A DNA stretch of 64,000 nucleotides, taken from NCBI GenBank assembly GCA_021604005.1, contig BQIV01000018.1:1-64000 (forward strand), read 5' to 3'. The notes beneath the pieces were generated by a model that saw only the letters and a list, made by a program, of their open reading frames with translations, was not told the DNA's origin and searched no databases. The stretch's first letter is position 1. Every line of letters starts with the position of its first letter. A program made the position numbers and the translations under genes. Of the stretch, positions 19,167-33,047 are shown one piece after another. Source of the stretch: Nitrospirales bacterium (lineage in GTDB: Bacteria; Nitrospirota; Nitrospiria; Nitrospirales; UBA8639).

Positions 19167-19652
19167 CTATTTACTGAGGGACGAATCGATAGCTTGCTCA
19201 AACGTTGGGGTTGCTAACGTTGTTGCCTCATGTTCATGCGTGTGGCAACCAAGGCAATGACACAGACGACGATTCCAAAATCCTGCAAATGCGATAAGCG
19301 ATGCTCCTAACACATCAAGGGCAATCTCTCCAAAGCTGCTTGGCACCATCCAGACATGTGCAGCGACGAGCAAGGAAAGGCCGAGTGCGGTCATATACGC
19401 CGGACGAATATCGCGATGTAAGGGATAAGTGGCCAGCAGGCCAAACCCTGCGAGGATCCCAATGATACCGACAAAAAACCATTCGGTGGTTTCGGCTAAA
19501 AACCCGCCAAGAAGCACGTCCAACCCGCCCCATGAATGCGCAGCAATGACCGGAAGTGCGAGCAGGGCTAAGGGAGTGAGTGCGCAATGAACGGCACACA
19601 CCAATGATGCGATTGATCCGGCTTTTGAAAGTTTGGGGCCGAGAGTTTTCAT
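19167..19652 (-). CDS. MerC-domain membrane protein
   Basis: This protein has 161 residues from ATG 19652 and about four hydrophobic segments. It starts with the MerC pair CAVHCALTPLALLALP (two Cys with a His between) and ends in a soluble Cys/His cluster, CHCLGCHTHEHE, suited to metal binding. The ATG lies four bases after the stop of the Fur-family gene, so the two form an operon and share the palindromic operator at 20100. Metal transport or buffering is likely. The metal (Zn, Hg, Co or other) is not determined by sequence. Confidence 0.75.
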   Translation of the reverse strand: MKTLGPKLSKAGSIASLVCAVHCALTPLALLALPVIAAHSWGGLDVLLGGFLAETTEWFFVGIIGILAGFGLLATYPLHRDIRPAYMTALGLSLLVAAHVWMVPSSFGEIALDVLGASLIAFAGFWNRRLCHCLGCHTHEHEATTLATPTFEQAIDSSLSK

Positions 19653-19656
19653 AGGA

Positions 19657-20076
19657 TTATTGACATTTTGGACAGAGACCGCTGAATTCCAGTGTATGTT
19701 CATTCACGATAAATTGAGTTTCTTTTTCAATAAATGCTGTGAGTTTTTTTAGGGGGCATAATAATAAATCTGCAATGCGACCACACACTTGGCAACGAAT
19801 ATGATGATGGTGCTCACGTCCATGACGAATCTCAAAACGGGCTTGACCTTCTTTGTGAAGCTCAATTTGCGCCACGACTCCAAGGTCACGCAACACGGTT
19901 AGGGTCCGATACACAGTCACTAAATCGATTGACACCTTGTTCTTTTGCAAGCGTTCATAGAGCTCAGAGGCACTCAGTGGGTACTTTGTTCGTTCAAGAA
20001 CCCCTAAGACCGCCCGACGGGTTCGAGTAAGCCGATGCCCGGCAGCTCGCAAATCCTCATCAATGGTAGACTTCAT
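19657..20076 (-). CDS. Fur-family metalloregulator (Zur-like)
   Basis: This protein has 139 residues. A winged helix (TRTRRAVLGVLERTKYPLSASELYERLQ, then VTVYRTLTVLRDLGVV) is followed by the dimerisation domain with the His-rich EHHHHIRCQVCG and the C-terminal CPKC. The two CxxC pairs would hold the structural zinc. The same palindrome (TTGCAA-N5-TTGCAA) lies 24 bases before its start codon and in front of the zinc-uptake genes 4-12 kb away. This suggests autoregulation and a Zur-type role. The co-operonic gene encodes a MerC-like protein. PerR- or Fur-type specificity is not excluded. Confidence 0.85.
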   Translation of the reverse strand: MKSTIDEDLRAAGHRLTRTRRAVLGVLERTKYPLSASELYERLQKNKVSIDLVTVYRTLTVLRDLGVVAQIELHKEGQARFEIRHGREHHHHIRCQVCGRIADLLLCPLKKLTAFIEKETQFIVNEHTLEFSGLCPKCQ

Positions 20077-20099
20077 ATGTCTGACACCTCAATACCTAA

Positions 20100-20116
20100 T
20101 TGCAAATCTCTTGCAA
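20100..20116. promoter_or_regulatory. Fur-family operator (autoregulatory site)
   Basis: The site TTGCAAATCTCTTGCAA has two TTGCAA half-sites. It matches three other sites in the window (24767, 29331, 32034) and overlaps the expected promoter of the Fur-family gene. Confidence 0.7.
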
Positions 20117-20253
20117 TTATAAACATTTCACCATGAATGTCAAGTGAGTCGACAGACCATTGGCAGATGACATGTCTCGTACAACAGTAGCAAACGAGAC
20201 ATGGCCTATTGCCGCTAGAAGGATGGGGGAGAACCGACTGCGAGGGAAGTCCG

Positions 20254-21018
20254 TCAGGCACGCTCTCGAGAGAGAGGTCTTACCCGGCAGGCCAGAGCAA
20301 CACCCTCACGGTAGCGAAGCCATAAGCGTAATGATTTCTTGATAGCGACAAGAACCGCATCCTGCCTTGCCCTGGTTGTGGCATGTGTCACCACCATATT
20401 ATAGGCATCGTGTCGATGTCCGTTTTCGACCATTTGATGTGCTCGTGTTAAATCCATCGCGTCAGGCGAGACCCCATGATGACAGACTAACGGATGTTGC
20501 CGAACGATTGCTTCAAGACGTTTTCGCGTCATTGGAACCGTCGATGCCTGAAGTTCCTGTCGGTCGTGCTTGCTCCCCTCGACAAAGATCGTCAACACCG
20601 CCGCACCGACAACCCAGTCTTGATGAACGGAAACTCGGTCCAGCCAAAGCCGGTAATGACGGCTAGCCGGAAGTAAGGTGATGTGTGTAAATGCCTTTGC
20701 GGGATACCGTAATCCCTTCATCATTTTGAGAAACAATTCAGGATGTGACCGCCCCAATGATAATCGACCTGTATCTTCTTCGTAGATGTTTTCAGCCAGC
20801 ATCGCACGTACATCTGCTGGAGGGTTTTGCCCATAAATCCTTGCAAGAAAAACAGGAAAATCCCGCACATAGACACCAAATTCTTGCTGATAATGTAGTT
20901 TCAGTTTCGATTTGGCAATGGCAGGTCCAGAAAAAATGGACCAAGCCCAATGATGCTTTTGATCCATGAGGCTTAACAATTGATTGCGGAATTGTGTGCG
21001 AGAAAGACGTGTACTCAT
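20254..21018 (-). CDS. PqqC/TenA-like haem-oxygenase-fold protein, metal site apparently complete
   Basis: This all-helical protein of 254 residues belongs to the PqqC/TenA/CADD superfamily, which includes haem-oxygenase-like diiron oxidases. A carboxylate-x9-His (D82 and H92, in YEEDTGRLSLGRSH), E147 (in FVEGS) and an H194-x3-E198-x2-H201 triad resemble the Glu-His-Glu-His-Asp-His ligand order of diiron members, with Glu replacing Asp. It is paralogous to 56866-57609, which lacks the last two His. The reaction is unknown. Oxygen-dependent chemistry on a small molecule is a family-based guess. Confidence 0.7.
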   Translation of the reverse strand: MSTRLSRTQFRNQLLSLMDQKHHWAWSIFSGPAIAKSKLKLHYQQEFGVYVRDFPVFLARIYGQNPPADVRAMLAENIYEEDTGRLSLGRSHPELFLKMMKGLRYPAKAFTHITLLPASRHYRLWLDRVSVHQDWVVGAAVLTIFVEGSKHDRQELQASTVPMTRKRLEAIVRQHPLVCHHGVSPDAMDLTRAHQMVENGHRHDAYNMVVTHATTRARQDAVLVAIKKSLRLWLRYREGVALACRVRPLSRERA

Positions 21019-21325
21019 TCAATCATCCTTGTCTCTCAGATTCTGGCTATCTATCACCGTTTCACGAGATGCCTGCACGAACGACGTATGGTTGTGCGTT
21101 GTACATGATACCCATTCGGCTGGAAATTTGTGGCTTTCTCAAGTTTGCATAGTGTCTATAGAAGTTTTCCTCTATGGTTCGGATCGTTGACACATTGCTT
21201 TCGTTATCGCGAATAGGCCTAGAGCCACGTAAGATCTCAGCAGAATGCGGCAGGGAGGGCCAGAGGCTCAATGGTCTTGAGCATACACATGTCTTCCACG
21301 AATAGATGGATCGAGTTCTGGAGGT
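21019..21325. other. Gene-free spacer
   Basis: I see no frame with family resemblance and no strong hairpin. Confidence 0.35.
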
Positions 21326-22111
21326 CTAACGAGGGGATTCTACGCGTAAAGCGCTTTCTCTCGGCGACTGGACAGAGGATGGAAAGGGTTTGGCCTTGGC
21401 AGATTTTGAAGAACGTGGCTTGACTTTTTTCGTTACCGCCTTCTCGGGTCTTCCGGTTTTGGACTCAATAGATTCGAGCTCTTTACCCAGATGCAACAGG
21501 ACCTGTTGCTGTGAGACGGCTAAGGCTTTTAATTCACTAATTTGTGAATTGACTCGGGTGAATTCTTTTCGTTGAGCCGTCAGTTGATCGCGAAGCGCAT
21601 GCACTTCCCCCAGTAACTCGTCATGTTCTAACGTAGCCATAGATGATACGGGTTGTGATTCAATCGTAGCAGGAACAATCCGGGACTGCGACTTTGATGT
21701 GGCGTTCTTCTTTTGTGAATAGATTTTCCAAATTTTTTCGCTAATGTTATCTGAACGTTCTCGAGCGTTTTGTGCCAATCGAACAAGCAAATTTATACTC
21801 GCGCCCACCCCGTTTTTGCCAAGTCTTATGACACCGGTGACCACAGAAGCCAGACCGTTACCTACACACCGGCATCCACGCCCACACAGTGCAAAACCTG
21901 CCTGAATCCATCCAAGCAGTTGCTTGCCTGCACCTCGGACCGCATCAAGCATTGTCGCAAACAATTGCACACCGGCAGACGGCGCTTCATCTCCAACCTG
22001 AATTCTCAAAGACTGCGCAGGATCGTACGGTAGTTTTGGCTTGGACTTCTCACCGTCTGAAGGCAGTATATGAATGAGGTTGAGTGGAGTTTCCGTTGTT
22101 TTCCAGCCCAT
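21326..22111 (-). CDS. Hypothetical protein with amphipathic helices and coiled coil
   Basis: This protein has 261 residues. The N-terminal 70 residues are hydrophilic. A Gly/Ala/Val-rich amphipathic stretch follows (about 55-115: MLDAVRGAGKQLLGWIQAGFALCGRGCRCVGNGLASVV). A coiled coil of about 45 residues (LLGEVHALRDQLTAQRKEFTRVNSQISELKAL) leads into a Lys/Ser/Pro-rich tail. The pattern recalls polyhydroxyalkanoate-granule or other surface-associating proteins, but there is no family signature and no phaC or phaP neighbour. I do not recognise it. Confidence 0.55.
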   Translation of the reverse strand: MGWKTTETPLNLIHILPSDGEKSKPKLPYDPAQSLRIQVGDEAPSAGVQLFATMLDAVRGAGKQLLGWIQAGFALCGRGCRCVGNGLASVVTGVIRLGKNGVGASINLLVRLAQNARERSDNISEKIWKIYSQKKNATSKSQSRIVPATIESQPVSSMATLEHDELLGEVHALRDQLTAQRKEFTRVNSQISELKALAVSQQQVLLHLGKELESIESKTGRPEKAVTKKVKPRSSKSAKAKPFPSSVQSPRESALRVESPR

Positions 22112-22584
22112 AGCAAAGTTCCAATACGTCTAAAAACAATCGTTTGAGAATCTATTCTCTTAACGCAATATTGCTTGACCGTTAGTAAAATACATGTACC
22201 GTCTCATCAATGACGCGTATTTGCATACCTTCCTTACTTTTTTTACTCCTCTTGCTTGCTAGAGTCAATGGTGAGGAATACAGTGGTGATGCCTGAAACC
22301 GGCCATCAACCATGTTCATGATGACACAACTCAACTCCGTCATTAATAGCTCACGCATAGCCATACTCCAATATCTTGGATATCATATTCTGGTCGTCCA
22401 CCATATTTGCCGTATTGTGAGAATACATAAGATTTCATATAAATTCATTAGTGCCTTACAATTGAGTATTTATTATTAAATTATACTACCTATAAATCTT
22501 ATAAGTACATATTTCACCGATGTGGTGGAAGAATGGAAGATCTGAGTTTGTATAGTCGAAAACCTGTGAGGACTCACACTCCCT
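22112..22584. other. AT-rich gene-free spacer upstream of the metal island
   Basis: Several weak frames exist, none with family resemblance. No copy of the TTGCAA palindrome is present here, so the regulator gene that follows has no visible Fur-type operator. Confidence 0.4.
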
Positions 22585-22896
22585 ATGCAACGTCTTCATG
22601 AAACACTACGTCAACGAATCATGCAATTACTTCAAGACAATCAGCGATCATCGCATGAACTGGCAATATTGATTGACCGCTCAGCGAGAGACGTAGAACA
22701 TCACCTTGCCCATGTGAAGAGAAGTCTTGATAGCGATCAACAGAACCAATTCACCGTCTCTCCCGTTCGGTATCAACATTGTGGGTTCGTTTTTCGGGGA
22801 CGGAAACGATTGACCTGTCCCAGTCGTTGCCCAACCTGCAAAGGAGAACACATCTCCCCTCCTCGATTCCGGATTATCAGCAAAACTGCCGGTTGA
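22585..22896 (+). CDS. HTH plus Zn-ribbon transcriptional regulator (COG3357-like)
   Basis: This protein has 103 residues. The N-terminal winged-helix-like part (HETLRQRIMQLLQDNQRSSHELAILIDRSARDVEHHLAHV) joins a C-terminal zinc ribbon (CGFVFRGRKRLTCPSRCPTCKGEHI). This is the arrangement of the predicted regulators grouped as COG3357. It sits directly upstream of a zinc-island lipoprotein gene on the same strand with a 66-base gap, so it may sense metal or regulate the first lipoprotein. No target is known. Confidence 0.7.
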   Translation: MQRLHETLRQRIMQLLQDNQRSSHELAILIDRSARDVEHHLAHVKRSLDSDQQNQFTVSPVRYQHCGFVFRGRKRLTCPSRCPTCKGEHISPPRFRIISKTAG

Positions 22897-22962
22897 CAAT
22901 TTTGGAAAGAACAGGTATCCGAACACACATTAATAAGCCTATCGTTCAATCAGGACTCGACC

Positions 22963-23790
22963 ATGTTTTCTTTTGGTATGCGCAGTATAGTGTGTGGAAT
23001 GTTCGTCACATTGTCGGCGTGCGTGTCTGTTCCACAGATCGAGACTTCCATCCTTGAAAGCCCTCAGGGTCATGTGACGCTTAAGACCTTTTCCGATTCG
23101 TCCATTCACGCTTCTCATCCCTCATTCCTTGGCGCTCCTCTTCTACAAAAGGCACTTCAAGGACTTCACGTTTTGGAAGATAAAGCCTTATTGGCGACAT
23201 TGGTCAGCGGTGAAGGACAGGAGTTGCCGGTTCTGACTGATCAAGAGCTACAGTTTCTTATCCCGTGGCTGAGTGAGGCGTTTGCTCAAGCGACACCTGA
23301 AGAATATGTCTGGTTCCAACTCACAAACACCAATGCCACGGTCCCACACGAGACGAGTGGGAGTCTGTATTTCTTTCAGAACCTGTTACGGGTAACATTA
23401 CATACATTTCAAGCCGATCGTCGTCAAAACAAGCTATCATCAAAAGCCAGTTTCTCCCCGACACACATACGACATTGGACGTTGACGTATTCTCCAGCTA
23501 CGGCCCAACAACAGACCGATACCAGCCCAGAAACGTATCCCCAAGATGCAATCGGCTCTGTTGCCATTGATGTAACGACCTTGCCAACCACTAAACCACT
23601 ATCAAAGACTGAACCCAAAACCGTAATGCCATTGCAAAGAGAAATCATTGGGCAAGATGCCGAGGTACAGGAGACTCGACAATTGCGGAAAGAAATTGAA
23701 GAACTGCAAGAACAGGTCGACGAGCAGAATAGAACACTCAAACAATTACACGATCGGTTCAAACAACAGATGCCGTCACCAGAAGAATAA
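22963..23790 (+). CDS. Metal-island lipoprotein, family unknown (copy 1)
   Basis: This protein has 275 residues. A signal peptide is followed by a lipobox (VTLSAC), then a body of about 160 residues (IETSILESPQGHVTLKTFSDSSIHASHP through LYFFQNLLRVTLHTFQ). A linker and a C-terminal coiled coil (RQLRKEIEELQEQVDEQNRTLKQLHDRF) complete it. It is clearly paralogous to 25298-26122, with the same order and many identical blocks (AFAQAT/ALAQAT, QVETTI/QIETSI). It converges on an ABC permease gene 15 bases away. It is probably an outer-membrane or periplasmic lipoprotein working with metal uptake. I know no family for it. Confidence 0.75.
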   Translation: MFSFGMRSIVCGMFVTLSACVSVPQIETSILESPQGHVTLKTFSDSSIHASHPSFLGAPLLQKALQGLHVLEDKALLATLVSGEGQELPVLTDQELQFLIPWLSEAFAQATPEEYVWFQLTNTNATVPHETSGSLYFFQNLLRVTLHTFQADRRQNKLSSKASFSPTHIRHWTLTYSPATAQQQTDTSPETYPQDAIGSVAIDVTTLPTTKPLSKTEPKTVMPLQREIIGQDAEVQETRQLRKEIEELQEQVDEQNRTLKQLHDRFKQQMPSPEE

Positions 23791-23805
23791 TAGGAGTACA
23801 CATGG

Positions 23806-24648
23806 TTAAGAATGCACGTGTTTCGGCCCCAGACATTTCTTGACACACCATTGTCCCACACTCACAATCCTGAACAAGACCCCACCGACCACCACATCAG
23901 TTGGACCAGTCGGCCAATCAAGCTGGTACAACACGAGAAATCCTGAAAATTCCATTAACAAGCCAATGAAGGCAGCCACAATGGGCACTATCCAAATTCC
24001 AGTTTGCACGTGCATCGCAATCATAGGAGGAAGCAATAAAAATCCAAACGTCACCAATGGGCCGACGACGAGCACTCCCAAGGAAATCGTGACTCCAACG
24101 ATTCCATAGAGCAAACAATCCCAAACCCACACGAGTTTCCCAAGCGAGATTGCTAAGTCGCGATCGACGGAAACCAGCAGTAACTCTTTTCGAAAACACC
24201 ACAAGAGTGCCATCATCACGCTAAAACAGACAGCCAACAACCCTAAGTCGGCATCGGAAATGGCAATAATCTGACCATTCAATACAGACAACGCACCAAC
24301 TTCTGGAATCCGGTCTGACGCTAGAAGCAAGATCGTCAGCGCACCGGCTAAGACATAGAGTATGCCAATGCGACCTTCGACCATGCCGTGACCTTGCCGC
24401 TCCAACATGGCTATGAGCAGTAATGTGCCAGTTGTCAAAATCGTCGAACCAACGAGTCCAAGTCCGAAATCATTGTGAGGAATTTGCGAATGAAAGGTCG
24501 CATGCAAAAAAATAGCCATGGCAATTCCCGCGGCGGACAGCGTTGGTAAGGTAACACCGAGAAACCCCATCCGACGAACATACATCAGTTCGCCTACAAC
24601 TGGCAGCACCATCCGACTCAAGACTCCTCCATACAGCGCACTTCTCAA
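23806..24648 (-). CDS. Orphan ABC-3 family metal permease (second ZnuB)
   Basis: This permease of 280 residues has 7-9 hydrophobic segments. It is clearly paralogous to znuB at 26160 (VLPVVGELMYVRRMGFLGVTLPTLSAAGIA; SVDRDLAISLGKLVWVWDCLLYGIVGVTISLGVLVVGPLVTFGFLLLP). No ATPase or binding protein accompanies it, so it must use those of the main operon or be a relic. Homology extends upstream of the TTG start at 24648, through IDPSYVL, to an in-frame TAG at 24669-24667. That stop truncates the N-terminal helix relative to its paralog. The palindromic operator at 24767 lies 118 bases upstream. Confidence 0.75.
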   Translation of the reverse strand: MRSALYGGVLSRMVLPVVGELMYVRRMGFLGVTLPTLSAAGIAMAIFLHATFHSQIPHNDFGLGLVGSTILTTGTLLLIAMLERQGHGMVEGRIGILYVLAGALTILLLASDRIPEVGALSVLNGQIIAISDADLGLLAVCFSVMMALLWCFRKELLLVSVDRDLAISLGKLVWVWDCLLYGIVGVTISLGVLVVGPLVTFGFLLLPPMIAMHVQTGIWIVPIVAAFIGLLMEFSGFLVLYQLDWPTGPTDVVVGGVLFRIVSVGQWCVKKCLGPKHVHS

Positions 24649-24766
24649 AACATAGGAAGGGTCAATCTACTCAATGAATGAAAACTTTGGCAGCTGATTG
24701 TCTGTCGTTGGCTACTCCTCCTCTCAGAATTGAACAGTATTCACGTGCTTCAATAACGAAGCTTTA

Positions 24767-24783
24767 TTGCAACTCTCTTGCAG
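24767..24783. promoter_or_regulatory. Fur-family operator between divergent metal genes
   Basis: The site TTGCAACTCTCTTGCAG matches the site before the Fur-family gene at 15 of 17 positions. It lies between the orphan permease (minus strand) and the exported-protein/lipoprotein operon (plus strand) and could control both. Confidence 0.6.
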
Positions 24784-24846
24784 CTACTATACAATGTCCT
24801 CCGTGAGTCCATGACGCCCAATGTTAGGTATAGCAAGCTAAGGATC

Positions 24847-25287
24847 ATGCAAATACCGTTCAAACTATGGAAGCTCTCGGCGATGTTCCTTGTCGAGCTA
24901 TTATTCGTCATAGCATTCGGGAACTTTTCTGTATTTGCATTAGACCTTGGGTATTCTTGCCAAGCTCACCCAAGCGCTGTGTTCGATACCATAAGCCAGA
25001 CGACAAAAGAAATGAAAGATTGGCGGTCGATCAGGAAAGTGAGCCACGAGTACACGATTAAGGCGGTCGTGCGGAACTGGCGAAATGCGGCGGTCCCTAT
25101 CTGGGTTACTGTACGACTGTCACCCACTGGTGAGCATCAGAGCAATAGCGAAATGCACATACTCTGGGAACAATCAATGGAACCGCTGAATTACCCTGAC
25201 ATGTATACCTTCCTCAACATCTTTCAGCTCCGCCAGCAAGATGCTGACCTGCATTGCGTATGGATCGGCTCAGACGTGGGGCCTTGA
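24847..25287 (+). CDS. Exported hypothetical protein of the metal island
   Basis: From ATG 24847 this is a protein of 146 residues with a good signal peptide (LWKLSAMFLVELLFVIAFGNFSVFA-LD). The mature part has two Cys far apart (YSC and LHC) and a beta-rich middle (EYTIKAVVRNWRNAAVPIWVTVRLSPTGEH) that reads like a small immunoglobulin-type domain. ATG 24811 and TTG 24778 are alternative starts, the latter inside the operator. It is the first gene of a pair with the lipoprotein at 25298, ten bases away. Function unknown, presumably in metal handling. Confidence 0.55.
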   Translation: MQIPFKLWKLSAMFLVELLFVIAFGNFSVFALDLGYSCQAHPSAVFDTISQTTKEMKDWRSIRKVSHEYTIKAVVRNWRNAAVPIWVTVRLSPTGEHQSNSEMHILWEQSMEPLNYPDMYTFLNIFQLRQQDADLHCVWIGSDVGP

Positions 25288-25297
25288 GGATTCGTCG

Positions 25298-26122
25298 ATG
25301 CGTCAAGGACTCCACATGCTCATTGCCGGTCTCATACTGACTCTCGTGTTCACCGGCTGTTCCGGGTTGCCACAAGTGGAAACCACCATTCACCAAAACG
25401 AACGCGGCATCGTGAGCTTACGGACGTTTGCCGATCCAACGGTTAAAGCCACTCATCCCATGACACTTGAGCCATTCATCTTGGCTCGAGCCTTACGAGG
25501 ATTATACGTAAAAGAAGAAAAAGCGATGCTCGGAGGGCTGATTGACGGGGGAGCCGTGAAGCGTCCGACCTTCACGGATGAACAGATTGTCTTTCTAGCC
25601 CCGTTGCTCTCAACGGCTCTTGCACAAGCCACCGATGAAGAGCAGATCACATTCTCGCTGATTGACTATGTACAGTCAAAGAAGCGCCACACGAAGGGCG
25701 TCTTATATGTTTCCGAACCTGCACTCCACCTTATATTAACTCAGTATCAGGTTTCTGCCGAGAGGCCCACATTACTATCAAGACCGTCGTACTCCTTTAG
25801 CCGTCCTAAACGATGGACGCTTGGATTTTCACCAGATACTGGTCTCCTTGATGAATTCAACGATGTTCCAATAGGAAATAATTCAGATGGAAGAATGTTG
25901 AAGATTGCCTACAACCGTGTACCGAGTCATTCAAACTCATCCTCATCCAACATCAATTCTGAACATTCTGACGAAAAGGTGGCGAACCCAGACGCCTTAG
26001 CACATGAGAATAAGAGTGGGGCAGAACTGAAGACCCTCAAAGAAGAATTGAAAGAACTCCAGAACTCTCTGAGCGAACAGAATAGAAAGCTTGACCGATT
26101 GGAAAAACGAGTGAATCCGTAG
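25298..26122 (+). CDS. Metal-island lipoprotein, family unknown (copy 2)
   Basis: This protein has 274 residues from ATG 25298, with GAGG eight bases upstream. A signal peptide and lipobox (LVFTGC) precede the same body as copy 1 (PQVETTIHQNERGIVSLRTFADPTVKATHP, then LARALRGLYVKEEKAML and LSTALAQATDEE). A Ser/Asn-rich linker and a coiled coil (LKEELKELQNSLSEQNRKLDRLEKRV) follow. It lies downstream of the exported-protein gene under the operator at 24767 and converges on znuB 37 bases away. It probably faces the periplasm or outer membrane. Confidence 0.75.
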   Translation: MRQGLHMLIAGLILTLVFTGCSGLPQVETTIHQNERGIVSLRTFADPTVKATHPMTLEPFILARALRGLYVKEEKAMLGGLIDGGAVKRPTFTDEQIVFLAPLLSTALAQATDEEQITFSLIDYVQSKKRHTKGVLYVSEPALHLILTQYQVSAERPTLLSRPSYSFSRPKRWTLGFSPDTGLLDEFNDVPIGNNSDGRMLKIAYNRVPSHSNSSSSNINSEHSDEKVANPDALAHENKSGAELKTLKEELKELQNSLSEQNRKLDRLEKRVNP

Positions 26123-26159
26123 CAATCCGACGCATTCTCATCTTGTGCCGCAAAACCGA

Positions 26160-27032
26160 TTACGCTTGAGCGGTTTTCTTCGTGAGCATCCATCGCACAA
26201 CAGTAATCATTGCCAGAATGATGTAAGCCACGAGCGCGTCAGTCGCGCTCGTGGGCCAATCAAGGAAGTACGAGACGACAAATCCCGTAAACGCAATAAT
26301 GACACCGAGCAGTGCGGCAATGATAGGCATCGCTGAAAATCGCTTTGCCATCCGTTCCGCAGTCATCACTGGGAGGAGAAGGAAGGCAAATGTGAGGAGC
26401 GGGCCGACCATCAGGACCCCTAACGAAATCGCAAAACCCACAGAACCATACAACACTAAGTCCCAGACCCACATTTGCTTTCCCAACGACAGCGCCATAT
26501 CACGATCGACAGAAACCAGCAGGAGTTCACGGCGAAACAAACATAACAGCATGACAATCAGACTGTAACTCGCAAGAAGTATCACCATGTCACTATCAGA
26601 AATCGCAATGATTTGTCCTTGTAGAAGCTTTGTGATCCCGACTTCCGGCACACGCTCTGAAGCCAGTAAAAGAACGGTGATCGCACCTGCGAGAATATAC
26701 ACCACTCCGATTCTTCCCTCCACGAGACTTCGACTGTTCCGCTCTATCATCGCTAAGAGGAACAGCGTTCCAGTTGTCACAATGGTTGATCCGATCAACG
26801 CAAGGAGAAAGTCGCTATGCACCGGATCTTGCTGATGAAGCGTTAAGTGCCAAAATACGGCCGCGGCGATTCCACAGGTCGACAACTGCGGCAACGCCAC
26901 GCCCAGAAAGACCATCCGTCTCGCGTACATCAAGACTCCCACAAGCGGCAGCACCAAACCTGTCAACATCCCACCATAGAGGGCATTGCGTAACACATAC
27001 GATGGATGCAAGATCTCTAGAAGCTCACTCAT
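26160..27032 (-). CDS. znuB: Zinc/manganese ABC transporter permease
   Basis: This integral membrane protein of 290 residues belongs to the ABC-3 family. The typical VLPLVGVLMYARRMVFLGVALPQLSTCGIA segment is present, as is the cytoplasmic EAA-like stretch before SISLGVLMVGPLLTFAFLLLPVMTAERMA. It overlaps znuC by eight bases (translational coupling), so it is the third gene of the znuA-znuC-znuB operon. A full paralog without ATPase or binding protein lies at 23806. Confidence 0.85.
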   Translation of the reverse strand: MSELLEILHPSYVLRNALYGGMLTGLVLPLVGVLMYARRMVFLGVALPQLSTCGIAAAVFWHLTLHQQDPVHSDFLLALIGSTIVTTGTLFLLAMIERNSRSLVEGRIGVVYILAGAITVLLLASERVPEVGITKLLQGQIIAISDSDMVILLASYSLIVMLLCLFRRELLLVSVDRDMALSLGKQMWVWDLVLYGSVGFAISLGVLMVGPLLTFAFLLLPVMTAERMAKRFSAMPIIAALLGVIIAFTGFVVSYFLDWPTSATDALVAYIILAMITVVRWMLTKKTAQA

Positions 27033-27750
27033 AATTCCCTCTCACAAGACTCCACGCCAATCTTGGGTATGCTTTCATAAACTCATCCACTTTCTGTCGA
27101 ACAAGCCTATGATTCTCGATCAGAATCACCTCCTCGACGACTTTGAGAAGATCAGGAGCAAGGTGATCAGCCCACAATATACTGAGTGTTGACTCAGCAT
27201 TGAGCTTTCTGAACAGGTCGATCATGGCATAGACCGTTTCTTGGTCAAGGCTAGCCAAGGGTTCATCCAACACCAGAATAGCCGGACACGTAACCAGACC
27301 TCGTGCAATCAGTACACGCTGCTGCTGACCACCAGATAGCTCAGAGTAAAATTTATGTCTGAGCGCCATGAGCCCCACTTCTTCGATCGCCCAATGGACT
27401 TTATCGCTTTCCTCTCCTTTACATGACTCCCAAGGTTTCAAACGTCCGTAAGTTCCCATTCGAACGACTTCCGTAACGGTTAGGGGAAGAAGTCCAGTCA
27501 CGGCTGCACGTTGAGGAACATATCCAACAAGAACATTCATGTTGTCGTGCCTCGAATTTCTATCTATCGTTCCACTCAATGGAGGTAGGATACCGGCGAT
27601 GGTCTTAAGTAAGGCCGTCTTTCCGCCTCCATTGGGACCCAAGATCGCGAATGAATCGCCAGGGAAAACGTCGAGCGTGATATTTTGGAGGACGGGATTT
27701 TGCGAGTAACCAATCGTGACTCGGCGAAGACTTAGGTAAGGCGAACTCAT
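27025..27750 (-). CDS. znuC: Zinc/manganese ABC transporter ATPase
   Basis: This ABC ATPase has 241 residues. Walker A GPNGGGKTALLKTI, Q-loop region YVPQRAAVTGLL, signature LSGGQQQRVLIARGL, Walker B AILVLDEPLASLD and a H-loop-like WADH are all in place. It overlaps znuA (ATGA) upstream and znuB downstream. It energises uptake by the permease at 26160 and possibly also by the orphan permease at 23806. Confidence 0.9.
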   Translation of the reverse strand: MSSPYLSLRRVTIGYSQNPVLQNITLDVFPGDSFAILGPNGGGKTALLKTIAGILPPLSGTIDRNSRHDNMNVLVGYVPQRAAVTGLLPLTVTEVVRMGTYGRLKPWESCKGEESDKVHWAIEEVGLMALRHKFYSELSGGQQQRVLIARGLVTCPAILVLDEPLASLDQETVYAMIDLFRKLNAESTLSILWADHLAPDLLKVVEEVILIENHRLVRQKVDEFMKAYPRLAWSLVRGNYE

Positions 27751-28763
27751 GAATCAGGACGGTGTGCGACAGTCTTGGTGCCCGCAGCATCAAGTATCGA
27801 ACGCAGGTTATACTCAATGAGCTGTTCGTAGGTGTCAACCCCTGGATTTCCACCGACCATGATCAAGAACTTGGCGACAGTAGATCCCGTTTGTTCAGCG
27901 ACCCAATTTGGCAATCGTTCAGGATAGTGTGGTTCACGAAGGATCAAGTTGACCTGCTTGCCTTTCATACGATCGACTAACCAAACGAGGTGACCTTGCG
28001 TCGGTTCGATGCCGGGCCGAATCTCAATCTGCGCAACTTCCTCGAGTCCAAAACGTTCTGCAAAATAGATCGTGTCTTGATGGTAGGACACGAACTTCTT
28101 TCCACGCAGGGGTTCAGCAAGACGTTTCCATTTGGCGAGTTGCGTATCGATATGAGCTTGGAAGTTTTTAAGGTTAGTGTCAAAAAACTCTTTTCCGGGA
28201 GGATAAAGACGCGTTAAACCCTCAGCGATGTTTTTTGCCATCACTTTGGCATAGACCGGATCGAGATTAAAATGAGGATTTCCCAATGGGTGCACGTCCC
28301 CTTCGCGTCGCAGTAGAGACTTTGGGACCTGCTTGGGACGAATGTTTTGCGAAGAGTTGATAAAACCCACACCTCCTGGAAGAATATTGGGATTCCTTGC
28401 CACGTCGATTAACGCAGGTAGCCAGGAATGCTCGGCCTGAAGACCAAGGACGACCAACGCATCCGCGCGATTCAATTTTGGGACAAAACTGGGTTTAATC
28501 GGTACACCATGAGGATCTTCAACGCCTTTAGCTAGACTTTCGACCGTCACGTAGCCCCCCCCGATCCTGGCGGTAAAATCCGCCAGGTCGGGGATCGACG
28601 TCACGACACGGAGTTTTCCTCCTTCTTCTATCGACGGGCGTTGTGCCATGCCCAGCATGGCCGGAATCAAAAGAAATATCAATATGATTCTCGCCATGTT
28701 CATTGTTGAATCTTTCTTGCTCACGCTATTGTTTTTCTGTAAAGCCATATTGATGACCTCCAA
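27747..28763 (-). CDS. znuA: Zinc/manganese ABC transporter substrate-binding protein
   Basis: This is a cluster A-1 (TroA/ZnuA) binding protein of 338 residues. A hydrophobic segment (MARIILIFLLIPAMLGM) follows about 20 leader residues. Metal-ligand regions are visible: EDPHGVPIKPS, GNPHFNLDP and FVSYHQDTIYFAERFG, followed by a late acidic position. There is no long His-rich loop. The operon is probably read from the operator at 29331 through the small DUF2946-like gene. The first part of this gene exists as a decayed duplicate at 29750-29907. Zinc is more likely than manganese given the regulator, but this is inferred. Confidence 0.85.
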   Translation of the reverse strand: MEVINMALQKNNSVSKKDSTMNMARIILIFLLIPAMLGMAQRPSIEEGGKLRVVTSIPDLADFTARIGGGYVTVESLAKGVEDPHGVPIKPSFVPKLNRADALVVLGLQAEHSWLPALIDVARNPNILPGGVGFINSSQNIRPKQVPKSLLRREGDVHPLGNPHFNLDPVYAKVMAKNIAEGLTRLYPPGKEFFDTNLKNFQAHIDTQLAKWKRLAEPLRGKKFVSYHQDTIYFAERFGLEEVAQIEIRPGIEPTQGHLVWLVDRMKGKQVNLILREPHYPERLPNWVAEQTGSTVAKFLIMVGGNPGVDTYEQLIEYNLRSILDAAGTKTVAHRPDS

Positions 28764-28774
28764 TCACGACCTCC

Positions 28775-28900
28775 CTTAAAATAACGCCTGATTATTAGAG
28801 GCAAATAGATTGCTATACTTTAAGTGACTGTATTGTCAGGGAAATGGTTGAAATTCACTCGAACAATATGTGAGATAGTCATATGCACTTCAACGAAATA
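28775..28900 (-). pseudogene. Remnant of the 3' end of a duplicated porin gene
   Basis: The bases just upstream of znuA resemble the end of the intact porin gene (29925-30010). Both share CAATCACGAC(C/T)TCCC near the znuA start, and the block GTTGAAATTC(A/G)CT recurs in the same order. The rest of the porin copy is missing. Confidence 0.55.
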
Positions 28901-28957
28901 GGCCATGGACAAATCAGCTGTACATCCAGCCGTGGGTTAGCTAAGGATGCAAGTGAA

Positions 28958-29287
28958 TCAGGAGGAAGGTGGAGGACGGGGCAACTGAACGGAGAAGCCC
29001 AAGAACGAAGCAACGACGATATTTCGCGCTACGGTATTTTTAAAGGCAGCAAAGGGCAAGCCATCTGCCAAAAGATTTTCAAAGGCAAATAACCCATTCG
29101 CATGCTGCTGAACCCATTGACACAAATCAAACTCAGAGTGTTCATGACCATTATGATCAACCTCAGAAAAAACATGATAAATCTCAAGCACACCATAGAA
29201 GGGAAGCAAGCTGAAAAACAACAGCCCAACCAGGACAGCTATTGAAGGGAATATTTTTTGACCGAAAAAATAATTGAACACCCTCAT
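28958..29287 (-). CDS. DUF2946-like small membrane protein (copy A)
   Basis: This protein has 109 residues. One hydrophobic segment (IFPSIAVLVGLLFFSLLPFYGVLEI) is followed by the metal-suited YHVFSEVDHNGHEHSEFDLCQWVQQH. The conserved H-x3-E-V-D-H-x-G-H-E-H cluster is shared with copy B at 31665. The operator at 29331 sits 44 bases before its start. It would be the first gene of the operon leading into znuA. The likely role is periplasmic metal binding or sensing; the annotated DUF2946 group is uncharacterised. Confidence 0.65.
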   Translation of the reverse strand: MRVFNYFFGQKIFPSIAVLVGLLFFSLLPFYGVLEIYHVFSEVDHNGHEHSEFDLCQWVQQHANGLFAFENLLADGLPFAAFKNTVARNIVVASFLGFSVQLPRPPPSS

Positions 29288-29330
29288 ACGGATCCAACCC
29301 TAGCAAAGAGCTGAGAGAGAGTCAAACACA

Positions 29331-29347
29331 TTGCAAATGACTTGCAA
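29331..29347. promoter_or_regulatory. Fur-family operator A (znu operon)
   Basis: The site TTGCAAATGACTTGCAA lies 44 bases upstream of the DUF2946-like copy A. It differs from operator B (32034) at one position. Confidence 0.7.
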
Positions 29348-29415
29348 AATGCTTGACTGACTGACAAAGGCTTAAACAAAAACGAATGGCAGAGAAGAGA
29401 AGGCCGAGAGCCCGG

Positions 29416-29745
29416 AATCAAAACAAACCCAGCACATTCCCGACGATCTGCGCAATCTGATACAGTATAGGACCGAATGTAGCCAGAAAGATACCCGGGA
29501 GGAAGAAAATAACCCAGAGAAAGACCAATTTCACGGAAAGCCCTTGAGCATGGGTTTCTCTTGACGACGGCGGCGTAAATCATTCGCCTGGCGACGCAAT
29601 GTTTGAGCAACATTCGCCCCGAATTGTTCACCCTGAATCAAGGCAGAAATAAAAAGAGACAGGGAAAGCAATGGATAGCCGTTGATAGAGACGACGAAAA
29701 CATTTTAAACGAAAAATTCCTAATGAAACTTCTTTTGTAAAGATA
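29416..29745 (-). pseudogene. Decayed duplicate of the 3' part of tadC
   Basis: This stretch aligns base for base with the end of tadC (32136-32480). Shared blocks include CAGAAAGAT(A/T)CCCGG, GCCCTTGAGCATGG/ACCCTTGAGCATGG, and GACGACG/GACGGTG runs around the RRQAN...LRxRRQE codons. Frame shifts and stops make it non-coding. It was created by the tandem duplication that also produced the znuA remnant next to it. Confidence 0.75.
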
Positions 29746-29749
29746 CGAC

Positions 29750-29907
29750 ATTCTAAGGCAGCCACCTTGTCCGATAGGTGGCTGCCCTCCCACACCAAAC
29801 ATGGCGAGAATCATATCGACTTTTCTTCGGACTCTCGCCATGTTCACAGTTGAACCGTTCATGCTCAGACTATTGTCTTTCGGTGAATCCATGTTGATGA
29901 CTTCCAA
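29750..29907 (-). pseudogene. Decayed duplicate of the 5' part of znuA
   Basis: Its start region (MEVINMDSPKDNS...STVNMAR) parallels that of znuA (MEVINMALQKNNS...STMNMAR) and diverges after about 45 codons at the join with the tadC remnant. The DNA match runs on into CTCGCCATGTTCA and GATGAC(C/T)TCCAATCACGAC. Confidence 0.75.
29757..29786. terminator. Hairpin at the duplication junction, possible terminator
   Basis: GGCAGCCACC and GGTGGCTGCC form a perfect 10-bp stem with a 10-base loop. It lies downstream of the porin gene on the minus strand and so could end that transcript. The following bases (TTAGAATG) are a poor U-tract. Confidence 0.45.
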
Positions 29908-31534
29908 TCACGACTTCCCACTGGAGTAACACTTGATTTTGTGGGTCAAGCGTATTCCCATACTTGGTGTGGTTATACTGCAGTATGAAGCGTTGAAATT
30001 CGCTGGGATAAAACGTGATATATGGTGAAAAGGTCATCGCATCGGTACGATTGCCCGATGCATTCAACGTTGAACCCACATTTCCACTAATCGGATTCGT
30101 CACGAGCGCCGGTTCGCTCGGCAACTGATGATAGTCGAATCGAAAGCCGGGACGCCATCGTTTATTGATTCGATATTCAGCGTATCCATAACCACCCCAC
30201 GCTCCTTGAGAGACCGTGTTGCCAAAAACATCCCGTCGTCCCTGACCAAAATCGTACATGATTTCTCCATGGAATGAGAAGCTTTGCCGAAGTCCACGTC
30301 CTAACGGGTACCACCGATAATGAAAATCGAGATTGAACGTGTGTCGATCGATCGGATCCGTTTCGTCAACCGCCAGCAACGCAAGTTCCCCGGCTTCGGG
30401 CACTCGCGACTGGGGTGTATACACGACGGAAAATCCAAGCTCAACATTGTTGTCGTCGTTTAGATCATGGTAGGTGCGTACAGATCCAAAGAAGGTTTCG
30501 CCGTTGATGACTTGCGAGCGAAGATTGCTGAGGGGACCTTCACCAAGCAACCCAAAATTAAATCCCCATCCCGCCGTAAAAGCCAAATACGTGTCCGTTG
30601 GCGCGAGCCATGACAATTCGATACCATCCGTTCGATTCCCGTTACCCATAAAAAGCGCTAACGATGGAGGGATGTCAATTTGTGGCAGATCGTGAGCATG
30701 CCGTCGTCCTAGATATCCCCAGTCAGCGAAAAACCTTCCACCCCGAATGGAGAGATTGAATGGTAAAGACGTGGTCTGGATCGCGGCCTCTTCGATCTCA
30801 AAAAAGGCTTTGCCGAATTCTTCAGTTCCTTTTGCATTTATTCCTTCGGCATGACCGGATGCGATGACGTAGGCACGGGCAAAGGGATCGATGTCAGCCG
30901 CGGCAAAGAGCTCAATCGTGCGCAACGCCGATGAAAAGCCTGCTGGAACCTTTGTCCCAACCTCTCCTCCCGCGTCGTCTCCATCGCCACCTTCGACAAA
31001 TCTCATGCGCCGCTGCGTGTAACCAGCGATTGACTCGACGACGAACCCAATCGCTGGATTGAACCGGTTCAGGATCTGTTGACGTCGTAAGATCGCGACA
31101 TCTCGAGGAGTCTCGCCAACATCAAGACTTTCAGGCACATTTAAGGGCATACCACCGACTCGTGGCAGGAGATCTGAAGGTTCTGCCTTTGATCGACTGC
31201 CTGGAAAACGATTATCCAATACACTACCTCTGTCTGTTGCATCAGGAGGCCCCGCTACACCTGCTGTCGCACCAGAGCCGCTCGCTTGGCCTTTAGACTG
31301 AGCTATTACAATTGGGGGTCGCATGCTCTGCGCTTGCGCCATACGAACACGAACGTCCTGAGCTAGCCGCACGCCCTCTATCGCTTCTCGGTTTCCATCG
31401 AGCGTCATTTCTTGATCTGAAGGTTCGGATGCGAAAGTGGATAAGGGAAAACAACTGAAAACAAACAGACACAGTCCGACTCCCAGCAGCCGGACCGTTA
31501 GAGACCTGTGACGGCTTGTACCATTTCGAGTCAT
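29870..31534 (-). CDS. Outer-membrane porin-like protein of the metal regulon
   Basis: This protein has 554 residues from ATG 31534, backed by GGAGGAGTGAGT directly upstream. The signal peptide is LLGVGLCLFVFSCFPLSTFA. A disordered N-terminal part of about 130 residues precedes a long beta-barrel-like region with alternating aromatics (GIELSWLAPTDTYLAFTAGWGFNFG; WRPGFRFDYHQLP; MTFSPYITFYPSEFQRFILQYNHTKYG). The body resembles zinc-responsive porins, with a barrel C-terminus (NQVLLQWEVVIGSHQH). The gene lies downstream of the DUF2946-like copy B and operator B, and its 3' end overlaps the znuA remnant. It probably lets metal cross the outer membrane. Confidence 0.7.
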   Translation of the reverse strand: MTRNGTSRHRSLTVRLLGVGLCLFVFSCFPLSTFASEPSDQEMTLDGNREAIEGVRLAQDVRVRMAQAQSMRPPIVIAQSKGQASGSGATAGVAGPPDATDRGSVLDNRFPGSRSKAEPSDLLPRVGGMPLNVPESLDVGETPRDVAILRRQQILNRFNPAIGFVVESIAGYTQRRMRFVEGGDGDDAGGEVGTKVPAGFSSALRTIELFAAADIDPFARAYVIASGHAEGINAKGTEEFGKAFFEIEEAAIQTTSLPFNLSIRGGRFFADWGYLGRRHAHDLPQIDIPPSLALFMGNGNRTDGIELSWLAPTDTYLAFTAGWGFNFGLLGEGPLSNLRSQVINGETFFGSVRTYHDLNDDNNVELGFSVVYTPQSRVPEAGELALLAVDETDPIDRHTFNLDFHYRWYPLGRGLRQSFSFHGEIMYDFGQGRRDVFGNTVSQGAWGGYGYAEYRINKRWRPGFRFDYHQLPSEPALVTNPISGNVGSTLNASGNRTDAMTFSPYITFYPSEFQRFILQYNHTKYGNTLDPQNQVLLQWEVVIGSHQHGFTERQ

Positions 31535-31664
31535 ACTCACTCCTCCCATGCCATGAATCATAGTGTGCGTGCAACACGATCGTCCGCGCACCATCACGAT
31601 CGGACAACGCGGTGTTGCTCAACGCTCTAAATAATAGATGATCAAGAAATTGAACAGGAAGAAC

Positions 31665-31991
31665 TTAAGAGAGGGGAGGTGCACGCGATCCGCCAACCGA
31701 TATCGTTGGTGAGGTCCATGCGTACTCTACGCTGCTAAGATAGCCGTCTGGAATGTAAAAAGGAGTGGTAACACCAAGCGGATCAATACTCAACGCGCTA
31801 CTAGTATGCTGCTGTACCCATTGACATAAATCAAAATCGGAATGTTCATGACCATCATGATCAACTTCAGCAAAAACATGATGAATCTCAAGAGCACCGG
31901 AGAATGGCAGCAAGCAGAGAAACACCACTCCGAGGAAAATTGAAACCTTCCTCACTAGGTAAGGCCGAAAGCATGATGCAGACGATTTCAT
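31665..31991 (-). CDS. DUF2946-like small membrane protein (copy B)
   Basis: This protein has 108 residues. A hydrophobic segment (VSIFLGVVFLCLLPFSGALEI) is followed by HHVFAEVDHDGHEHSDFDLCQWVQQH, almost the same as copy A (28958). The C-terminal third differs but keeps a PF...APPLS-like end. Operator B lies 43 bases upstream. It probably heads the transcript that includes the porin gene. Seven His/Asp/Glu within 20 residues argue for a periplasmic metal site. Confidence 0.7.
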   Translation of the reverse strand: MKSSASCFRPYLVRKVSIFLGVVFLCLLPFSGALEIHHVFAEVDHDGHEHSDFDLCQWVQQHTSSALSIDPLGVTTPFYIPDGYLSSVEYAWTSPTISVGGSRAPPLS

Positions 31992-32033
31992 AACGAGCGG
32001 AATCTAGCAAAGGCTCAAACTTCTGTCAAGTTA

Positions 32034-32050
32034 TTGCAAATGTCTTGCAA
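32034..32050. promoter_or_regulatory. Fur-family operator B (porin transcript)
   Basis: The site TTGCAAATGTCTTGCAA lies 43 bases before copy B of the DUF2946-like gene, at almost the same distance as operator A from copy A. Confidence 0.7.
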
Positions 32051-32135
32051 AAGTGGAAAGTGGCCGTGGTCTCGGGTTTGAGAAAATGTGATGTGAGGAA
32101 TAATCAGAGAGGAGAGTATACCGGAACCGCAGGCC

Positions 32136-33047
32136 TCAAAAAGTCCCCATCACACCACCAAGAATCTGAATGAGTTGATAAATGGTTGGACCCAACGTCG
32201 TCAGAAAGATTCCCGGCAAGAAACATAAGACCAAGGGAAACACAAGCTTGACGGATAACCCTTGAGCATGGTGCATCGCATGCTCCTGCCGACGGTGCCG
32301 TAATTCATTGGCTTGACGACGAAGGGTGTGCGCCACGCTCGCTCCCAATTGTTCACTTTGTACGATAGCTGACGTAAACAGGGAGATGGAAGGAATCGCG
32401 AGACGTTGTGCCAGCCGTCGAAAACACCGCAATCGAGAAATACCCAAGGAAACTTCCTGTTGAAACACACGAAACTCCTTGGTCAACGGACGCCCGGCTG
32501 GTTGTGAACTCAAGATTTTCGCCAGGGCGGAATCAAAATTCATTCCTGTTTCTACTAACGTCGAGAGTAAATCCAGAAAGAGTGGGAGATCCTGCTCTAC
32601 AGCAACTATCCGTTGTTGACGAATGCCTCGAACAACAAAAAACGGCGCCCCCCCTATCAAACAAAAAACAATCCATGGCATGGCAGACACGGCGACACCT
32701 AGTCCCCACCCGAAACTGCCTGGCAATTTCGCCACCGATTGCTCGAAGGCATCGACAATGTGGAAATGATACATCATAAAGATGCAACCTAATGCTATCC
32801 ATGTCGAGAGTACCATAACACTCACAAACAGCAACGGTGCAGCGGCATGACGAAATCCGGCTAGGGCCAGCCAGCGTCGAATTCTCCTTCGATGCTCTCG
32901 AGGCCCTAGCGACGTGTCCACTTTCACCGATTCCGAAAATTCTAGAATTCGCCGTAAACTCTGTTGACGGCGATACAATGAAAGAATTCCCAGAAGACAC
33001 ATGATGGTGCCTAAGAAAAGCGTCAGCATTATGCTCACCTGAATCAT
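32136..33047 (-). CDS. tadC: Tad pilus assembly protein TadC
   Basis: This inner-membrane protein of the type II secretion F (GspF) family has 303 residues. It has membrane segments near both ends and the GspF-like stretch DLPLFLDLLSTLVETGMNFDSALAKI...RPLTKEFRVFQQEVSLGISRLRCFRRLAQRLAIPSISLFTSAIVQSEQLGASVAHTLRRQANELRHRRQEHAMHHAQ. It follows tadB by nine bases. The 3' part was duplicated and survives as a remnant at 29416. Confidence 0.85.
   Translation of the reverse strand: MIQVSIMLTLFLGTIMCLLGILSLYRRQQSLRRILEFSESVKVDTSLGPREHRRRIRRWLALAGFRHAAAPLLFVSVMVLSTWIALGCIFMMYHFHIVDAFEQSVAKLPGSFGWGLGVAVSAMPWIVFCLIGGAPFFVVRGIRQQRIVAVEQDLPLFLDLLSTLVETGMNFDSALAKILSSQPAGRPLTKEFRVFQQEVSLGISRLRCFRRLAQRLAIPSISLFTSAIVQSEQLGASVAHTLRRQANELRHRRQEHAMHHAQGLSVKLVFPLVLCFLPGIFLTTLGPTIYQLIQILGGVMGTF

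Follow-up and report, generated by a model that had tools for sequence, protein, structure and literature searches.

A conserved palindrome as the likely operator of a probable Zur-type Fur-family regulator in Nitrospirales

Zur regulons of gamma- and betaproteobacteria and of Pseudomonas comprise a Fur-family repressor linked to znuABC and COG0523 genes, together with HemB and PyrC paralogues and 7-1-7 palindromic operators (PMC2770081, PMC6103462), features that the system described here shares; the HemB, PyrC and COG0523 paralogues are considered marks of such regulons (PMC2770081). In the study of ZepA, the zepA genes for which the motif search returned a box are all from Cyanobacteria, Proteobacteria or the PVC group, and a Nitrospirota box is not given (PMC10957091). 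In the open-access literature that we searched, we found no Zur regulon for Nitrospira.

We analysed a 64,000-nucleotide stretch of a Nitrospirales genome (hereafter the window; contig BQIV01000018.1, positions 1 to 64,000), in which an earlier note had described a palindrome shared by a Fur-family gene and metal-uptake genes. It is very likely, in our judgement, that this palindrome is the operator of the Fur-family protein encoded at 19657-20076 (minus strand), most likely a Zur, and that it governs the regulator's own gene and the uptake operons. This reading is built on features visible in the DNA: the sites, their placement relative to conserved promoter modules, their conservation, their presence in genomes that have the regulator and, in relatives, the zinc-sparing genes found beside it.

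The palindrome, the regulator and the uptake island

The four sites, at 20100, 24767, 29331 and 32034, have the coordinates and letters given in the earlier note, and their density in the genome is not random. The exact form TTGCAAN5TTGCAA occurs three times in 4,705,129 bases, each time inside the window, and four of the five occurrences of the 15-bp core TGCAAN5TTGCA in the 4.7-Mb genome are the listed sites. Written as 7-1-7, the core reads as an ordinary Fur-family operator; the sites lie near promoters, including that of the regulator itself, as is common for operators of the Fur superfamily. One-mismatch sites in the whole genome stand at background level (19, against 17 for the reversed control), and we therefore claim no further targets; two-mismatch sites in the window are not enriched either (7, against 5.25 expected). 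Boxes found in relatives away from the regulator and the D genes, at nine loci, matched the reversed-control background and were discarded.

The regulator (139 aa) has the winged-helix and dimerisation domain of the Fur superfamily (PF01475, E 2e-27), and its sequence matches PDB entries of Fur, PerR, Zur and Nur. None of the Fur-family NCBIfam equivalogs, Zur included, reaches its cut-off on this protein; the Zur model NF008646, which represents the enterobacterial branch, scores 30.6 bits against a cut-off of 167. Cysteines C95, C98, C135 and C138, invariant in 13 diverse orthologues, form a Cys4 structural zinc site that occurs in other Fur proteins too and so does not discriminate Zur. Candidates for the sensory N2OS zinc site between the domains, invariant in the same 13 orthologues, are H74, E76, E82, H89-H92, D103, C107 and H127; the AlphaFold model is of medium confidence (pLDDT 72) and lowest at residues 105-108, too weak for placing C107. 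The regulator gene overlaps a gene for a MerC-family membrane protein (19167-19703, minus strand; PF03203, E 1.5e-13), and the pair is kept in the family. Immediately 5' of the regulator lies a haem-oxygenase-like gene (PF14518, 20254-21018), kept in some close relatives.

A paralogous Fur-MerC cassette was also observed (G000:C8:122843-123241 and five further loci), extended to Fur-MerC-D in three genomes. Its Fur is 44-55% identical to the window Fur and its upstream regions lack the TGCAA box, sharing instead a TGCAGATGA-like sequence (TTTTCATGCAGATGAAAA in L136-L138) that is perhaps an operator of its own; in the window's genome, a TAA lies inside the copy. A Fur relative in Patescibacteria (42% identical) has four TGCAA half-sites upstream, spaced by 11 bp (L193, 2424-2462), and a ZIP transporter downstream.

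Two of the boxes precede genes for small exported His/Cys proteins, D1 (28958-29287) and D2 (31665-31991), which we identified by alignment of the D proteins and, for D2, by gene order in relatives; these and the following genes are on the minus strand. D2 heads the gene of an outer-membrane porin-like protein (29870-31597), whose PF07642 match is weak and below the cut-off (E 1e-4) and which is kept in the operon of relatives. The D1 operon encodes a ZnuA-type binding protein (27747-28763; PF01297, E 7e-47), an ABC ATPase (27025-27750) whose closest NCBIfam model is AztA, below its cut-off, and the ABC-3 permease PERM1 (26160-27032; PF00950, E 2.5e-33). Pfam and NCBIfam assign no family to the D proteins. 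The label DUF2946-like, applied to them earlier, is not supported, as only two of the 17 members matched PF11162 (E 0.031 at best), and weak matches to RecA_dep_nuc were taken as chance.

The D1 and D2 regions are related by tandem duplication: 31806-32472 is 66% identical to 29102-29748 across boxes, D genes and a fragment of the adjacent T2SSF gene, and a second stretch, 29830-30022, matches 28686-28877. By this alignment, the boxes at 29331 and 32034 are paralogous copies of one ancestor and not independent. Only one of their 17 bases differs, whereas identity around them has fallen to 66%, which suggests selection. The duplication, now decayed, extends over 28686-32472 and includes a T2SSF 3' fragment (about 29347-29748), a second permease/lipoprotein pair and a truncated copy of the binding-protein N-terminus (29794-29907, minus strand; tblastn, 50% over 38 aa). 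Four relatives have a single copy, with D, porin, binding protein, ATPase and permease behind one box. The earlier claim that four recurrences exceed chance thus stands for the clustering of the core (at least three of four independent sites in the 12-kb island, probability ~7e-8 with the duplicated pair counted once) and falls for the independence of the two D boxes.

The fourth box (24767-24783) is the weakest, with an exact core and one altered outer base; its 17-mer, CTGCAAGAGAGTTGCAA, is identical to the regulator operator of one relative (G018). On one side lies PERM2 (23806-24648, minus strand), an orphan ABC-3 permease copy (PF00950, E 1e-24; 57% identical to PERM1), which completes the island's pair of such permeases. 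Its N-terminus is damaged: an in-frame TAG precedes IDPSYVLR, and the remaining start is a TTG lacking an obvious ribosome-binding site. On the other side, the ORF at 24778-25287 had been proposed as an exported protein under control of the box; our homologue search found it in no relative, and it is no longer counted as a target. The site is probably real and its targets are doubtful.

Two promoter geometries and the direction of control

The box is placed differently at the two kinds of promoter. At the regulator gene, the promoter (20116-20143, minus strand) consists of TTGACA at 20143-20138, an N16 spacer and TATAAT at 20121-20116, the last T of which is the first base of the exact operator TTGCAAGAGATTTGCAA (20100-20116, read on the minus strand), so that the operator overlaps the -10 element and +1 and ends 23 bases before the ATG. 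Orthologues of the regulator were found in 37 of 49 family genomes (E at most 5e-58), and 36 of these 37 have the box upstream with at most two mismatches, as do all Nitrospiraceae orthologues examined, N. moscoviensis included. When the -35 was scored at a fixed distance from the box, a TTGACA-like hexamer stood exactly 26 or 27 nt before it in 45 of 49 orthologous regulator promoters from the two families, with an extended -10 running into the first box bases. The box itself reads ATGCAAN5TTGCAA in Nitrospira proper, again including N. moscoviensis, and its position is unchanged.

At the D genes, the box lies upstream of the promoter core, 43 (D1) and 42 (D2) bases from the ATG. The D1 module (29297-29347, minus strand) comprises the box at 29347-29331, TTGACT at 29325-29320, N17 and TAGGGT at 29302-29297; the D2 module (32001-32050, minus strand) comprises the box at 32050-32034, TTGACA at 32029-32024, N17 and TAGATT at 32006-32001, with an extended -10 (TGC). 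Nearly all orthologues share this arrangement: 3-6 bp separate the box from a downstream TTGAC[AT], and an N17 spacer lies between this hexamer and an extended -10 (TGNTA); the automatic search chose another hexamer in two cases, where the sequences show TTGACT at 6 bp. The box has at most one mismatch in 27/27 D promoters and is exact in 25, against maxima of 4/27 (D) and 1/36 (fur) for 179 permuted half-sites. If the extended -10 is used, D1 and D2 transcripts would start a few bases from the ATG (at 29287 and 31991) and be near-leaderless.

We infer that the regulator binds the box with zinc as co-repressor, and that it represses rather than activates the D promoters. In zinc sufficiency, the zinc-loaded dimer would occupy the box. 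At its own gene, it would cover both the -10 element and the start point, thereby blocking RNA polymerase; steric autorepression is the natural reading of an operator that covers -10 and +1. At D1 and D2, a dimer directly upstream of the -35 would obstruct contacts of the alpha-CTD and of the -35, with a second dimer possibly reaching over the -35. In zinc starvation, the dimer would leave, and the D-porin and D-ZnuA-ATPase-permease operons would be produced.

At the D promoters, a site upstream of the -35 is not a textbook position for a repressor. The operator there is centred near -50, never overlaps the promoter core and occurs in two genera-wide variants; together with the nearly fixed gap of 3-6 bp, this would suit activation, by the metal-bound or the apo regulator. 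However, activators do not normally have their site centred near -50 either, and the D operons contain uptake genes, which should be silent when metal is plentiful. Both Zur activators and binding of apo-Zur close to the -35 have been described (PMC6103462), and one zinc sensor acting through one operator in two geometries could in principle have opposite outcomes, repressing its own gene and activating or apo-switching the D operons. We give this arrangement a small chance, and favour repression at the D promoters because their targets are uptake genes.

The metal and the protein that reads the box

Besides zinc, we weighed nickel, manganese and iron as the metal of the regulator. Zinc is strongly supported by the company that the regulator keeps. 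In the window, the uptake operon is of the ZnuA type, and the ligand motifs of its binding protein (DPH, NPHxxLDP and SYHxxxxYFAxRFG) are probably zinc-like, judged by what is established for cluster-9 binding proteins. In marine relatives, a D gene heads genes for a TonB-like protein and a receptor of the TonB-dependent type. In Nitrospiraceae, the regulator is followed by D, COG0523, WD40 and another COG0523 gene; next in this island come ZIP, dihydroorotase and HemB. Some of these genomes have a second box at a distance of ~11-13 kb, which precedes a CO_dh-domain gene, another D-like gene, S14 and ZigA-like genes. The zinc cysteines are missing from the island HemB (DVALDPYSSDGHDG), and five of these genomes encode a second HemB with DVCIDEYTSHGHCG elsewhere. 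Similarly, the island S14 is without CxxC, and the housekeeping S14 elsewhere is of the zinc type (RCGVCGR...MCRICF). Four Nitrospiraceae loci (L246-L249) show a zinc-sparing island of ~17 kb framed by boxes, one of which heads the CO_dh-domain (PF02552) gene together with another D-like gene, whose product ends in RGPP.

This zinc-sparing set of HemB, S14, PyrC and COG0523/ZigA chaperone genes in relatives, classical for Zur, beside uptake by ZIP and the window's ABC operon, is why we call the regulator Zur, its zinc binding being predicted; with it, 'probably zinc' is no longer a guess and has comparative genomics behind it. Against it, the window's genome has no zinc-sparing paralogue bearing the box, and the zinc-sparing genes of relatives, lying between boxes, are often several kb from the closest one.

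Which metal is sensed cannot be told from the motif by itself, because the box is practically that of the Streptomyces nickel regulator Nur. Matching tTGCaa-N5-ttGCAA as it does, the box could belong to a Nur-type sensor that controls nickel uptake. Such a sensor would not be expected beside zinc-sparing S14, HemB and dihydroorotase, ZIP and ZigA-like genes, which accompany the regulator in relatives. Furthermore, where Fur and Nur have H33, a histidine that binds metal in Nur, the regulator has a proline (P33) invariant in 13 orthologues, and Streptomyces Nur and Zur are both remote in sequence from the regulator. We regard a nickel sensor as very unlikely and retain zinc.

The box also tracks the regulator across genomes. 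Of the family genomes that have the orthologue, 31/37 carry the exact box, against 2/12 of those that lack it (Fisher ~5e-5); the two exceptions have a completeness of 73% and 66%. The counts are 21/27 and 0/9 (Fisher ~5e-5) when only genomes of at least 90% completeness are compared, and 18/21 and 2/15 (Fisher ~2e-5) in Nitrospiraceae, all three p-values being optimistic as the genomes are phylogenetically related. That another protein, such as a Fur or PerR paralogue, binds the box, with the linked Fur gene as no more than one of its targets, is highly improbable: the window's genome does hold three additional Fur-family matches, but genomes without the orthologue keep other Fur paralogues and lack the box, which argues that the regulator reads it, and the box is the autoregulatory operator in nearly all cases. 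Together with the footprinting in two families and the permuted-motif control, this co-occurrence supports the earlier proposal of Fur-family autoregulation and metal-uptake control.

Comparison with known systems

Compared with proteobacterial Zur, the Nitrospirales system differs in its box core, TGCAA-N5-TTGCA, and in its partners, the small D protein and MerC; its sensory residues also differ from those of E. coli and Mycobacterium Zur in a simple alignment. We propose its box as a new one of Zur type in Nitrospirota, placed at promoters in two fixed geometries. This would give Nitrospirales, the principal lineage of nitrite oxidisers and comammox bacteria, a box for zinc regulation, and mark the small His/Cys D family as a core zinc-starvation gene; the zur and D genes provide testable promoters in both geometries. 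As in the Nitrospirota with a ZepA-associated putative zur, a predicted Zur adjoins zinc-handling genes (PMC10957091). The closest operator is that of Streptomyces coelicolor Nur, also of the Fur family, which is practically the same (tTGCaa-N5-ttGCAA); its description was our only hit for the motif in the open-access literature (PMC3919588). Nur controls a nickel regulon of SOD genes, whereas here the box accompanies zinc-type uptake and zinc-sparing genes and a regulator with proline at H33. A box known for nickel thus appears to serve a regulon with zinc hallmarks elsewhere, so that the metal is not to be read from the motif.
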